From: Candidatus Gracilibacteria bacterium | GTDB taxonomy: Bacteria > Patescibacteriota > Gracilibacteria > BD1-5 > UBA2023 | Reading direction: 5' to 3' | Assembly (NCBI GenBank): GCA_028687475.1 | Contig: JAQUAB010000005.1 | Coordinates: 42,741-106,740, forward strand | DNA: 64,000 nucleotides | Part shown: positions 15,140-19,464 of the stretch, in pieces | Position numbering within the stretch: the first letter of the stretch is position 1 | Layout of the letters: every line of letters starts with the position of its first letter | Translations under genes and position numbers: made by a program | Notes under the pieces: generated by a model | What the model was told of the DNA's origin: nothing | Seen by the model: the letters and a program-made list of their open reading frames with translations, nothing else | Database searches by the model: none

Positions 15140-17113
15140 ATGGCACCAAAAGATCAAAAACCACAAAAAAAACCAACTCCCAAAGTTCCAAAGATTCCAA
15201 AACTTCCAAAATGAGCGAATGTGAAAGTCTATGAGATTACTCTTCGTACCTTTCTCTATCCGATTATTGTTGGGTTTGGTATTTTTGCTATCATCTACGG
15301 AATTCGTAACTACTCTACAGAGAAAATCACCTACAATGATGATATCGGACTCAATCAGATTACTCAGAACTATAGTTCTGGAGTCTATGAGGAAGTAGTG
15401 ATTCAAGGCGCGAATATCCAGGCAAAGAAGAAGGCGACAGAAAATGTCGTGAATGGAAAGGTGGTTACGAGTCGCGAAGTAGATCGAACGATACTTCCGG
15501 TAAATCTCGAGATTACTGATATTGGTCTCTCGAATCCAGCCAATCCCACCAAGGTGACTATCAAAGAAGAAGGATGGGGTACTGTTCTGGCAGATCTTCT
15601 TCCATCACTTCTCGGAACTCTTCTCTTTATCGTATTTCTCTTCTTCATCATGGGTCGTATGGGTGGTGGAGGCATGGGAAGTCCGATGGCGTTCATCAAG
15701 AGTCGTGCTCGTATGTATGATCCTGAGATGGATGAGAAAGTGACATTCGAGAATGTTGCTGGTGCAGAAGAAGAGAAAGCAGATCTCGTAGAGATTGTCG
15801 ACTTCCTCAAGAGTCCACAGAAATACAAAGACCTCGGTGCGAAAATCCCTCGTGGTATCCTGCTCCAGGGGCCTCCAGGAACGGGGAAGACGCTTCTTGC
15901 TCGTGCTGTTGCAGGTGAATCTGATGTTCCATTTTTCTCTATCTCTGGTTCTGAGTTCGTCGAGATGTTCGTCGGTGTCGGTGCTGCTCGTGTACGTGAC
16001 CTCTTCAAGGATGCTCGTGACAATGCTCCATCGATCATCTTCATCGATGAGATCGATGCTATCGGGAAAAAGCGTTCTCCTGGTATCGGTGGTGGACACG
16101 ATGAACGTGAACAGACATTGAACCAGATCCTCACGGAGATGGACGGATTCGATAACGAGACCAATGTCATCGTCATGGCAGCAACCAATCGTGCTGATGT
16201 CCTCGATAAGGCTCTTCTTCGTCCAGGACGATTCGATCGCAAGGTGACCATCAATCTCCCAACTCTCGAAGACCGTCGCAAGATCCTCGACGTCCATGCG
16301 AAATGAAAACCATTCGCTGATGATGTGAATCTCGATAAGATCGCAGCTATCACCGTCGGATTCTCTGGTGCTGAGCTCGGGAATCTCCTGAATGAGTCTG
16401 CTATCCTCGCTGGTAAGAATAGTGCGAAAAGTATCACTCAAGAGATGATCCAGAAATCTATCGAGAAAGTCGTGATGGGAAATGAGAAAAAATCGCTCCG
16501 CATGACCGAACACGAGAAGAAGCTCACTGCTATCCATGAGATCGGACATGCGATCGTCGGCAAGATGCTCGCACACACAGATCCAGTGCACAAGATATCT
16601 ATCCTTCCTCGTGGTGGCGCTGGTGGCGTCACTTGGTTCCTCCCTGAGAAAGATAGAACCTATACTTCGAAGGCGAAATATCTAGATGAACTCGCGACTC
16701 TCTATGGTGGTCGTGTAGCAGAAGAAGTATTCTTCGGTCCTGACTATATCACGACGGGTGCGAGCTCAGATATCGAGCGTGCGACCGAGATTGCTCGTGC
16801 GATGGTGATGCGATTCGGTTTCGATAGTGATATCGGGCCAGAGAATCTCGCTCCGGATATGAGTGAAGGCAACTTCCTCGGTGGTCAGACGAATGCGAAG
16901 GTCATCTCTGATAAGACACAGGATCTCATCGATTCGAAGGTGCGCAAGCTCCTTCTCGATGCCTATGCTCTCGCGAAGAAGATCATCACTACGAACAAGG
17001 CTCTCCACGAGAATCTCGCGAATGCTCTCCTCGAACGTGAAGAGATGCTTCAGGAAGAGTTCGATGCATTCTTCGAAGGAGTGGAAGGTGTTCCACAGAA
17101 AGTCGCAATGTAG
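15140..17113 (+). CDS. ftsH: ATP-dependent zinc metalloprotease FtsH
   Basis: This 657-aa membrane-anchored AAA+ protease degrades unassembled or regulatory proteins. The N-terminus is a Lys/Pro-rich stretch, then a membrane helix (about residues 35-50), an extracytoplasmic domain and a second helix (about 155-175). Walker A GPPGTGKT is near residue 244, Walker B is IIFIDEIDA, and the zinc site HEIGH is at about residues 466-470. Two UGA codons are read as Gly: one at residue 25 and one in VHAKGKPF, where FtsH proteins conserve glycine. With the standard code the gene would be cut between the AAA and protease domains. A terminator follows immediately. Confidence 0.97.
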
Positions 17114-17119
17114 TCTATT

Positions 17120-17143
17120 CCCTCACGAAAGTGGGGGATTTTT
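17120..17143 (+). terminator. Terminator of ftsH
   Basis: CCCTCAC (17120-17126), loop GAAA and GTGGGGG (17131-17137) form a 7-bp GNRA-capped stem followed by ATTTTTT. It lies 7 bp after the ftsH stop. Confidence 0.9.
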
Positions 17144-17171
17144 TGTATTTTCCGTTCAATAGATCTTTTTC

Positions 17172-17199
17172 TTGATCTATTAGATAAAATTCATACTAT
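17172..17199 (+). promoter_or_regulatory. Candidate promoter of structured leader RNA and R-M operon
   Basis: TTGATC (17172-17177), a 16-bp spacer and TACTAT (17194-17199) place the start of transcription at about 17206. That is exactly where the first stem of the structured RNA begins. Confidence 0.55.
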
Positions 17200-17205
17200 A
17201 AAAAA

Positions 17206-17441
17206 GCCAAAATTACATCTTCTATTCTTTTTATATTTAAAGGTAAGTAGGAGGATTTGCAAAATCCTTTCCTCTCTTTCTGTCTTTAAATATAGGAAGA
17301 AGTTGTAGTTTTGGCGAACATTAAGGTGAGCGAGTCCTCCTTTTTGTTTGCCAAAACTCACGTATCCCACTCAAAAAGTGGGATCGATCCATTTTTATAG
17401 ACTGTATGTTTTGGCGTGTTTATACTGTAGCACGCCTTTTT
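17206..17441 (+). ncRNA. Structured leader RNA with mutually exclusive stems upstream of R-M operon
   Basis: A 236-nt region between promoter and methyltransferase start holds nested inverted repeats. GCCAAAA (17206-17212) pairs TTTTGGC (17309-17315), with an inner 10-bp stem of 17233-17242 with 17284-17293. AGGAGGA (17249-17255) can pair TCCTCCT (17335-17341) as a pseudoknot. GCCAAAAC (17350-17357) pairs GTTTTGGC (17408-17415) around a perfect 8-bp hairpin (17364-17371/17377-17384). The last arm shares GGC with a terminator stem at 17413-17436, so one fold excludes the other. This looks like an attenuator or riboswitch-type control element. I do not recognise a known family; the fold was drawn by eye. 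Confidence 0.6.
17413..17441 (+). terminator. Candidate attenuator terminator before the methyltransferase
   Basis: GGCGTG (17413-17418), a 12-nt loop and CACGCC (17431-17436) are followed by TTTTT and immediately by the ATG of the methyltransferase. Its 5' arm overlaps the competing stem 17350-17357/17408-17415. The loop also contains TATACT, which could be a -10 box instead. Confidence 0.55.
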
Positions 17442-18236
17442 ATGTGACAATATTTCAAAGATAACAATTTCGCACTGTATCATGGAGATAGTATTGAAAT
17501 AATGTCGAAATTTTCAGAAAATACTGTTGATATGATATTTGCTGATCCTCCGTATTTTCTCTCTAATTGATGAATGACGGTTCATGCAGGACGAATGGTA
17601 AAAGTTGATAAATGAGATTGGGATAAATCTACTGGAACAGAAGATGATTTCGCTTTCCATATTCGTTGGTTAGAGGAAGCAAAAAGAATATTAAAACCAG
17701 ATTGAACGATCTGGATATCTTGAACATATCATAGTATATATCAGTGTGGATATGCACTTCAGATTCTTGGTTTTCATATACTTAATGATATATCTTGGTT
17801 CAAGCCTAATGCTTCACCAAATCTTTCTTGTAGGTTCTTTACTGCTTCTCATGAGACAATAATATGGGCGAGAAAGAGTAAAAAATGAAAACATTACTTT
17901 GATTATAACTCCATGAAAAATGGTGATTGGTCTGGGGATAGCATCAAAAAACCTGGGCTTCAGATGCGATCTGTCTGGTCTGTTCATCCACCGAAGAACT
18001 GGGAAAAAGTACACGGTAAGCATCCAACACAAAAGCCAATCGATCTTCTCAAAAGGATCATCATAGCGTCTACAAAGGATCAAGATATTATTCTTGATCC
18101 TTTTTCTTGATCTTGAACTACGGGCATTGCTTCAGAGATTATATGAGAAAGGAAATATATATGAATCGATCAAAATAAAGAATATCTCGATCTCACAATT
18201 AAACGGTACAAAGATATTAAATCCAACTCCAAATAA
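17442..18236 (+). CDS. Type II DNA adenine methyltransferase (beta class, M.DpnA/HinfI-like)
   Basis: This 264-aa protein starts ATG-UGA (Met-Gly) at 17442. The order of motifs is catalytic ADPPYFLSNGG (about residues 33-43), WDKS, a target region with ILKPDGTIWISGTYH, then HPTQKP and the S-adenosylmethionine site DPFSGSGTTG near the C-terminus, so it is beta class. The body resembles M.DpnA/M.MboB enzymes that methylate adenine in GATC, but the specificity here is inferred, not shown. I count 11 UGA-encoded glycines, including both glycines of SGSG, so the standard code hides the gene. It is followed after 4 bp by the endonuclease gene and protects host DNA from it. Confidence 0.9.
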
Positions 18237-18240
18237 TTCT

Positions 18241-19464
18241 ATGACTACCCTCAATCATGATGCCTGGGATATTATATTCAATAAACTTCAGATACTTGGA
18301 TCTGTGGATAAATGTTGATATTATGACATTACTGCAGATGATATAAAAAGAATCTCAAATAGAGAGCCGAGACTCATGACAAAAATTGATTATGAAGAAG
18401 TCTTACCTCAGATTATGAAAGAAAATCAACTCTCTATACTTGCTATATCAAATTGAGTATATAGAATCGCTCGTACTAATCCATTTATCAAAATTGCACC
18501 GATATCAAGTGTTGAAAATATAAAAAAGATGATGGTCCGTGATGATATATATACTATCGATCCATTTTCTATTAAAACTGAATCACAAATACTTGACCTA
18601 TGTGGCGTAAACTGAATATTGGATGAGGTATTTTGAGAAAAATCATATTTGACTATCAGATGAAGAATAAGAATTGATTCTGAAATCGGATTCACTCTTA
18701 ATTCTACAAAGTATAATATCTCATGAGTACAGATAGAAGTTGATGGTGGTTATGAATGAGACTCATCCATTAACCTTGTGGAAGCAAAGATGTGAGGAAG
18801 GGGAAATCTTAGCATAAGGCAACTTCTTTATCCTGAATTATTTTGGAAATCTCATGTTGCAAATAAAGAAATACGATCTCATGTATTACTCTATGAACGC
18901 AATATTATTAGATTTATACCATTTTATATAGTCTCAAACTGAGAATATATACTTGATAGCAATAATGAAAAGCAGTTTCAATTTATTCGTCCTGATATTG
19001 AAGTATTTGAGATATCAAAAGTCCCAATCAAGGAATGATTTCTGAATTATGATGCTCCATTTCCTCAGGCAGATGATTTTGATAAGGTGGTATCTATGTT
19101 TATATACATATCCAGTGGATATAATTCAAAAGATGAGCTCTCAAGGGAGTTTGATATTGTGAGTCGTCAGATAGATTACTATTATTCTGTATTGAGTTTT
19201 CTTGGTCTCTGTAAGAATGAACGAGGAGATAGCATAACTCTCACTGAAAGATGAGAACAATTGTCTTGATTATCAAAAGATGAACTTCTCATTGAGCTTG
19301 CGAAGATTATATTTTCCTCAAAAATATTTCATGATGCCTACAAATATGGAGTTGATTTAGTTGATGAGAAAGATTTTGATAAATGGAGAATTAGTGGAAG
19401 TACGATAAAACGAAGACTTCAAACTGTAAATGCATGGATAAGATACTTTAAGGAGATTTTATAG
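18241..19464 (+). CDS. Type II restriction endonuclease (PD-(D/E)XK type)
   Basis: This 407-aa protein starts 4 bp after the methyltransferase stop and ends at TAG. A likely PD-(D/E)XK core is VQIEVDGGYEG (about residue 165) followed by INLVEAKMGG, giving an acidic residue then E-x-K. The C-terminal part (about residues 290-360: SKDELSREFDIVSRQIDYYY...LTERGEQL) looks like a winged helix. Twelve UGA glycines occur. The function is inferred from the pairing with the methyltransferase and the catalytic pattern; I do not place it in a named endonuclease family. It would cut the sequence that its partner methylates. Confidence 0.75.

Follow-up and report, generated by a model that had tools for sequence, protein, structure and literature searches.

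A conserved family of leader RNAs with two mutually exclusive predicted folds upstream of restriction-modification and other genes in one order of Patescibacteria

Our analysis of a 64,000-nucleotide (nt) stretch of DNA from a Candidatus Gracilibacteria bacterium, here referred to as the window, revealed a leader element of approximately 235 nt directly upstream of a gene for a type II DNA methyltransferase (MTase). The element is one member of a large conserved family and has two mutually exclusive predicted folds; it likely serves as a switch before the restriction genes, and the choice of fold probably decides whether transcription terminates at a terminator-like hairpin in front of the MTase gene. 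An initial reading of the bare letters (the sequence-only reading) had proposed RNA-based attenuation of a restriction-modification operon; this interpretation is supported by the data reported here, attenuation itself being what we infer from sequence.

Results

The window belongs to a 1.06-Mb genome in 5 contigs, and its genes were read with code 25 (table 25), in which TGA encodes glycine. On the plus strand, positions 17442 to 18236 encode a CcrM-like MTase of the N6_N4 family, which matched the PADLOC type II MTase model (E value of 1e-96) and CcrMI in the PDB (E value of 2.4e-56). The next plus-strand gene, from the ATG at 18241 to position 19464, encodes a putative type II restriction enzyme, a name borne by some of its homologues. 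Searched with a query that began one codon before its ATG, this protein matched the PADLOC REase_II model (E value of 4.7e-42) and the Pfam domains DUF6996/DUF6997/DUF7226. Judged by these matches to type II MTase and restriction enzyme models, the operon at 17442 to 19464 looks like the restriction-modification system that the sequence-only reading had taken it for; its leader, as described below, belongs to a broad family that is not specific to restriction-modification. The gene upstream of the leader, which ends at 17113, we take to be ftsH, and the downstream neighbour of the operon is presumably a uvrC-like gene. In C-protein-controlled systems, a small regulator gene stands next to the restriction and modification genes. 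Between these two neighbours, the list of code-25 open reading frames (ORFs), with small ORFs left unscanned for regulators, contains the MTase and restriction enzyme genes and no other obvious gene. A hairpin with a T-run lies after ftsH at 17120 to 17145; it is likely a terminator and would keep transcripts of ftsH from running into the leader.

The element spans positions 17206 to 17441 on the plus strand, between ftsH and the MTase start codon. As had been read from the letters, it carries four boxes in alternating orientation: box 1 (GCCAAAA, 17206 to 17212), box 2 (TTTTGGC, 17309 to 17315), box 3 (GCCAAAA, 17350 to 17356) and box 4 (TTTTGGC, beginning at 17409). Box 1 is followed by the 5′ strand of a long stem, P1 (17213 to 17242), and the 3′ strand of P1 (17284 to 17308) leads into box 2; both strands are supported by inverted repeats and own-versus-cross comparisons, and the 5′ strand also by folding. 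Loop 1 contains strand a (AGGAGGATTTGC, 17249 to 17260) and its local partner a′ (17263 to 17273), which was supported by the own-versus-cross comparison of a with a′, and loop 2 contains strand a′′ (GCGAGTCCTCCT, 17330 to 17341). Since a is complementary to a′′, two G-U pairs included, the AGGAGGA/TCCTCCT pair of the sequence-only reading proved real and longer than claimed; the motif CCTT within a′ (17266 to 17269) also lengthens this loop-loop helix. Box 3 lies in the 3′ strand of the second stem, P2 (17345 to 17358), as defined by P2 covariation. Between box 3 and box 4, sequence and folding indicated an extra local hairpin (ATCCCACT/AGTGGGAT, 17364 to 17384), which in an 11-copy alignment (A1) occurs in the window copy only. 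Box 4 with its extension (TGTATG plus TTTTGGC, 17403 to 17415) is the proposed antiterminator partner of box 1 and overlaps a terminator-like hairpin with a T-run (17413 to 17441; arms 17413 to 17420 and 17429 to 17436). The T-run itself (17437 to 17441) adjoins the MTase ATG at 17442, in agreement with the earlier claim. The predicted fold of the element has an energy of −84.6 kcal/mol compared with a mean of −49.9 for shuffled sequences (z of −7.8), and none of 200 shuffles was as good.

Upstream of the stems, TTGATC (17172 to 17177) and CATACTAT (17192 to 17199) constitute a plausible predicted promoter on the plus strand, from which transcription would be expected to start near 17206. Of 71 copies of the element, 48 had a TATACT-like match (at least 5 of 6 positions) near box 1, as against 0.29 in shuffled controls, its commonest position being 12 nt upstream of box 1.

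A DNA-level search against 99 related genomes gave many weak matches, among which were diverged copies from several genera, and a strict pattern matched 17 of 77 genomes of the window's order; a backward-read control matched once. Two covariance models were built, R1 from 23 and R2 from 48 sequences. R1 matched 51 of 353 genomes of the class at E values of 0.05 or less, and its strong matches (E < 1e-4) lay exclusively in the window's order. R2 matched 44 of 76 genomes of the order at E values of 0.05 or less, with five copies in the window's own genome (that of the window, C4:88309, C1:85470, C1:99740 and C1:339721). Outside the order, only weak places were obtained, the best with E values of 4.6e-4 in the class and 2.4e-4 in a sample of 379 genomes from the phylum. 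In the latter, in which 13 candidates per listed genome were scored, the matches listed came from the genome of the window itself and from two places that carry a different palindrome. Our inspection of outside-order places covered six loci and left aside the weaker class places (E ≥ 0.016): L361, L366, L373, L483 and L484 carry the different palindrome, and L370 appears to lie in coding sequence. This palindrome (e.g., GTTTTG...TTCACCCC...CCCCTC...CAAAAC) recurs at these five loci in Patescibacteria outside the order; at L483 and L484, GTTAGGC/GCCTAAC-like motifs are located close to it, and it may be a repeat of the integron type or of another kind. Two scans with exact patterns, over named genomes and over viral contigs, returned at least 118 and at least 120 stretches, respectively, most of them chance matches. 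When R1 was applied to 80 listed loci per scan, a single match was clear (L126, Candidatus Gracilibacteria, with an element identical to that of G040), and two further ones, L078 and L189, were weak (E of ~3e-4). In Rfam 15, no family reached its gathering score for the window element; a relaxed threshold gave sub-threshold matches only, the best being a microRNA family (21.6 bits versus 83 required), and L20_leader scored 16.9 versus 58.7. The elements of 16 other loci gave tRNAs only.

The copies analysed, 71 in total, all come from the window's order. They were derived from 142 matches over both strands, which were reduced to one strand per place at E values down to 0.005 and thereby to 76 places, the weaker places of L375 to L381 being excluded. 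For the covariation set, 12 places with no or a poor box 1 or with a different palindrome were removed (L338, L342, L353, L354, L361, L366, L367, L370, L372, L373, L389 and one of three L382 places), and the resulting 64 copies were extended to 71 by seven diverged copies upstream of EcoRI-type genes that were recognized by eye. Their common anatomy comprises box 1, P1 with the G-rich strand a and a′, box 2, loop 2 with a′′, box 3, a spacer and box 4, the 3′ end of which opens a terminator-like hairpin, mostly with a T-run, that is followed by the ATG. The boxes occur as GCCAAAA/TTTTGGC, GCTAAAA/TTTTAGC, GCCAGAA/TTCTGGC and other variants, and the pairings are kept despite this drift. Box 4 fell below the score threshold in 15 of the 71 copies; in some of these (e.g., L360, L391 and L392), a variant form of the box is present. 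We also observed a subfamily (L332, L334, L336, L385, L386, L387, L390 and L382 at 2008 and 11273) with mostly GCTAAAA boxes and an additional ACTACGAAAGTAGT-like hairpin, which is repeated in genomes of two genera; its box 4 is often degenerate, and some of its copies precede pilin-like or secreted-looking proteins.

The covariation in relatives that the sequence-only reading had called for turned out to be strong. Pairing energies of strands from the same copy were compared with those of strands exchanged between copies; because the copies are related, the permutation counts are not strict probabilities. Box 1 had been located through its complementarity to box 2, and the comparison of box 2 with the upstream window is the fair test. 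In the 71 copies, own pairings were more stable than swapped ones for the upstream window with box 2 (−18.58 versus −9.01 kcal/mol), for box 2 with box 3 (−17.92 versus −11.82) and for loop 1 with loop 2 (−27.70 versus −15.66). The same was true of a with a′ (−9.08 versus −6.63 kcal/mol) and of a with a′′ (−12.61 versus −7.46). In the 56 copies with a scored hairpin, it held for the terminator arms (−9.23 versus −3.93 kcal/mol) and, by a small margin, for the extended boxes 1 and 4 (−8.45 versus −6.87). In each of these seven comparisons, none of 5,000 permutations was as good. The P1 strands gave −18.0 versus −7.3 kcal/mol in 64 copies. In P2, the stem of boxes 2 and 3, 96.0 % of the cells were paired in 48 copies, compared with at most 52.2 % in slid controls, and two-sided changes occurred at 11 of 13 pairs (0 of 500 shuffles). 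As regards the conserved unpaired aptamer core that a metabolite-binding riboswitch would have, the nearly invariant letters, noted by eye in this 48-copy alignment with other unpaired stretches left unscored, fall mostly in P2 or in the loop-loop helix and its U-run. Inspection by eye further showed that the boxes changed together in EcoRI-type leaders of the window's own genome, G016, G018 and G022, and that box 4 of L404 (CTCGG) fits the extension of box 1 (CCGAG), a motif that its box 3 lacks.

The loop-loop helix comprised a mean of 21.6 predicted pairs, with an uninterrupted run of 15.4 on average and of at least 9 in 70 of 71 copies; these counts are biased upward because the pairs were picked by energy. 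In the 64-copy set, one of 6,400 dinucleotide-shuffled loops reached the real energy, and for 30 copies the best-ranking loop 2 of all was the one from the same copy, which fits many copies having a common loop type. The helix contained 153 G-U pairs and 1 A-C mismatch when read from the sense strand and 30 and 36, respectively, from the other strand; for P1, the figures were 164 and 3 versus 30 and 32 (64 copies each). This excess of G-U over A-C indicates that the element acts as RNA from the sense strand. It also bears on the notion that the element is a mobile or recombination palindrome, such as a miniature inverted-repeat element (MITE) or an attC-like site, that stands before genes by chance. 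The alternating inversion of the boxes and the presence of several copies in some genomes would suit such a palindrome, but the strand asymmetry, the fixed orientation and distance to the ATG, and the deep divergence with compensated changes make it exceedingly improbable, and an ordinary repeat is rejected on account of the strand asymmetry and the fixed position before gene starts.

Taken strand by strand, the partner of box 2 is either box 1 or box 3, that of a is either a′ or a′′, and that of the box 4 region is either box 1 or the terminator arm. Three strands that each have two conserved, mutually exclusive partners are the signature of a two-state switch, and, as in a transcription attenuator, one of the exclusive pairings overlaps the terminator stem. 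The mutually exclusive stems of the sequence-only reading thus stood as copy-specific alternative pairings, and the sets had to be amended: box 1 with box 2 is opposed to box 2 with box 3 plus box 1 with box 4. An antiterminator formed by boxes 3 and 4 was rejected, being not copy-specific (310 of 5,000 permutations, n = 56; 509 of 5,000, n = 49) and appearing in none of the 56 full-leader folds.

We next followed folding along the transcript. In prefixes that end at box 2, boxes 1 and 2 paired in 71 of 71 copies. In prefixes extended to box 3, the nested folds gave a near tie between box 1 with box 2 (38 of 71) and box 2 with box 3 (29 of 71). In the 56 full-leader folds, box 2 paired with box 3 in 52, box 1 with box 4 in 31 and box 1 with box 2 in 4 (48, 28 and 4, respectively, by a stricter count). 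With the loop-loop helix left out, the energies of the two folds were similar: the second state (ON) differed from the first (OFF) by a mean of −1.7 kcal/mol (standard deviation of 6.8) and was lower in 45 of 56 copies; the helix, which is absent from nested folds, would be expected to favour the ON state.

From these pairings, we infer an order of events, with termination, read-through and a condition that chooses the fold. In fold OFF, boxes 1 and 2 would pair first and a would pair locally with a′; box 4 would then be left unpaired by box 1, and its 3′ half would close the terminator. Box 3 may subsequently displace box 1 from box 2, and a′′ of loop 2 may displace a′ from a to build the long loop-loop helix. 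The released box 1 would capture box 4, weaken the terminator and permit read-through (fold ON). The ON state is assigned in this way because box 4 overlaps the terminator arm. A ligand, a protein or the speed of the polymerase would choose between the folds.

An intrinsic terminator between leader and gene is indicated by sequence features only: a T-run of at least 4 directly follows the stem in 47 of 56 copies, the remaining 9 scored hairpins having none. The hairpin ends a median of 7 nt before the ATG, which lies within 14 nt in 50 of 56 copies, and a hairpin with a T-run within 14 nt of the ATG was found for 36 of 51 element genes versus 5 of 72 mechanically called control ORFs of the window. 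This ribosome-binding distance would also be in keeping with a leader that controls translation or mRNA decay, its last hairpin opening and closing with box 1, and three copies before zinc-ribbon genes (L327, L340 and L349) retain the hairpin without a T-run. Nevertheless, a purely translational hairpin has no need of the T-runs found in most copies, and we regard such control as unlikely. Shine-Dalgarno-like motifs preceded 2 of 56 element genes and 1 of 34 other ORFs, the latter scored at the first ATG only; since they are scarce before other ORFs as well, their scarcity does not decide the matter. Control of termination by strand exchange is the reading that we adopt.

The copies had been found without regard to genes, and the 72 loci that remain of the 76 places after subtraction of L361, L366, L370 and L373 yielded 70 first downstream ORFs. 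Pfam was run on 40 of these and on that of the window, and the remainder were placed by BLAST cluster. Restriction-modification genes accounted for 24 of the 70: 12 EcoRI-type MTases, 7 N6/N4 MTases (including that of the window and the type III enzyme of L362), 3 C5 MTases, one type I restriction subunit (L369) and one Tsp45I-type restriction enzyme (L350). The others encode pilin-like proteins, two SNase-type secreted nucleases, zinc-ribbon proteins, a T5orf172 protein and many secreted-looking proteins without a family. Viewed from the genes, the element was present at 19 of 21 loci of the order at which the start of an EcoRI-type MTase is visible (22 were found, one of them partial); 17 were detected by R1, the weakest three (E of 0.007 to 0.07) being confirmed by eye, and two by eye alone. 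The two loci without it are L403 and L401. The MTase gene of L401 (G058:C489) has no TGA codons and lies in a 2.7-Mb bin, and is perhaps not from a code-25 cell. An R2 match within approximately 460 nt upstream was found for 3 of 54 C5 and 9 of 91 N6/N4 rows of the order, with coordinates compared by eye and many fragments among the rows. The element therefore follows some gene families closely and not restriction-modification as a whole. In the window's own genome, a region of approximately 16 kb (C1:84467-99811; L404, L440 and L397) contains an EcoRI-type MTase gene with the element and pieces of a C5 MTase gene without an upstream R2 match, and another element there precedes a secreted-looking protein.

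The sequence-only reading had named, as a sign against itself, homologous operons that lack the element combined with its occurrence elsewhere as an unrelated repeat. The first half of this was observed: no element was detectable at six loci (L025 to L030) with the nearest homologues of the window MTase examined as DNA (35 to 52 % identical), and hence it does not travel with the window's enzyme type. The second half was not, in that the copies hold a fixed place before gene starts and are not scattered.

The diversity of downstream genes also weighs on the idea that the element chiefly represents an independent small RNA, with a promoter and a terminator to itself, trans-acting or protein-binding like the AbiF RNA RCd22 or type III toxin-antitoxin RNAs, so that expression of the gene would be mere read-through. 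The promoter-like box at its start and the terminator-like hairpin at its end agree with this, and a report on AbiF (PMC12373285) describes the same layout: RCd22 is a structured noncoding RNA that lies immediately before a defence gene and is equipped with a separate promoter and terminator, it controls AbiF, and premature termination occurs in the 5′ untranslated region. Repeated motifs are present in RCd22 and in type III toxin-antitoxin RNAs, which bind the toxin (PMC12373285). In contrast, the window copy has no tandem RNA repeats among its direct repeats, the downstream proteins belong to many unrelated families, and the terminator stem shares bases with a box complementary to box 1. We thus do not place the element among type III toxin-antitoxin or AbiF RNAs, and consider the small-RNA reading very improbable next to that of a leader switch.

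Discussion

Transcription-attenuating leaders, such as riboswitches, T-boxes and protein-controlled leaders, comprise a promoter, a structured 5′ leader and exclusive antiterminator and terminator hairpins before a gene. The element shares this layout, with a predicted promoter, a structured leader and exclusive hairpins, but matches no Rfam family and differs in its core, in which a double exchange of strands is combined with a predicted loop-loop helix, and in its targets, which include restriction-modification, pilin, nuclease and secreted-protein genes. RNA-based control of type II systems is described in the main text of a restriction-modification review (PMC3874152) for EcoRI and Eco29kI, in which reverse promoters within the operon make antisense RNAs; the likeness is that both are RNA based, which for the element is presumed, but the element is a sense 5′ leader with alternative folds. 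The main text of that review does not contain the word "riboswitch", and the one passage each with "attenuat" and "terminator" deals with something else (PMC3874152). A literature search, outside which most subscription journals and preprints lay, returned no report of a restriction-modification leader switch or of the element.

A bolder proposal, which we consider tentative and somewhat doubtful, is that the family constitutes a novel type of RNA switch, restricted to a single order of Patescibacteria with a recoded TGA (Gly), in which one RNA signal would govern restriction-modification genes of types I, II and III together with those for secreted nucleases, pilins and envelope proteins as a regulon for DNA uptake and DNA degradation. 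Such a switch may need no aptamer, its strand exchange racing against a polymerase whose speed would be set by nucleotide supply. According to a review (PMC11665869), imported DNA may supply nucleotides to Patescibacteria, but competence genes were not required for growth of the only species in which this was examined. As a hint to a DNA or nucleotide link, the gene set is suggestive, no more.

If the switch is real, it would be the first leader-RNA control of restriction-modification found in our literature search, and would operate in bacteria about whose gene regulation little is understood. It would also provide a ready set of possibly co-regulated genes and a reporter of what these cells sense. 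Its unusual architecture, in which a long loop-loop helix is tied to strand exchange, would be accessible in vitro without culturing the organism.
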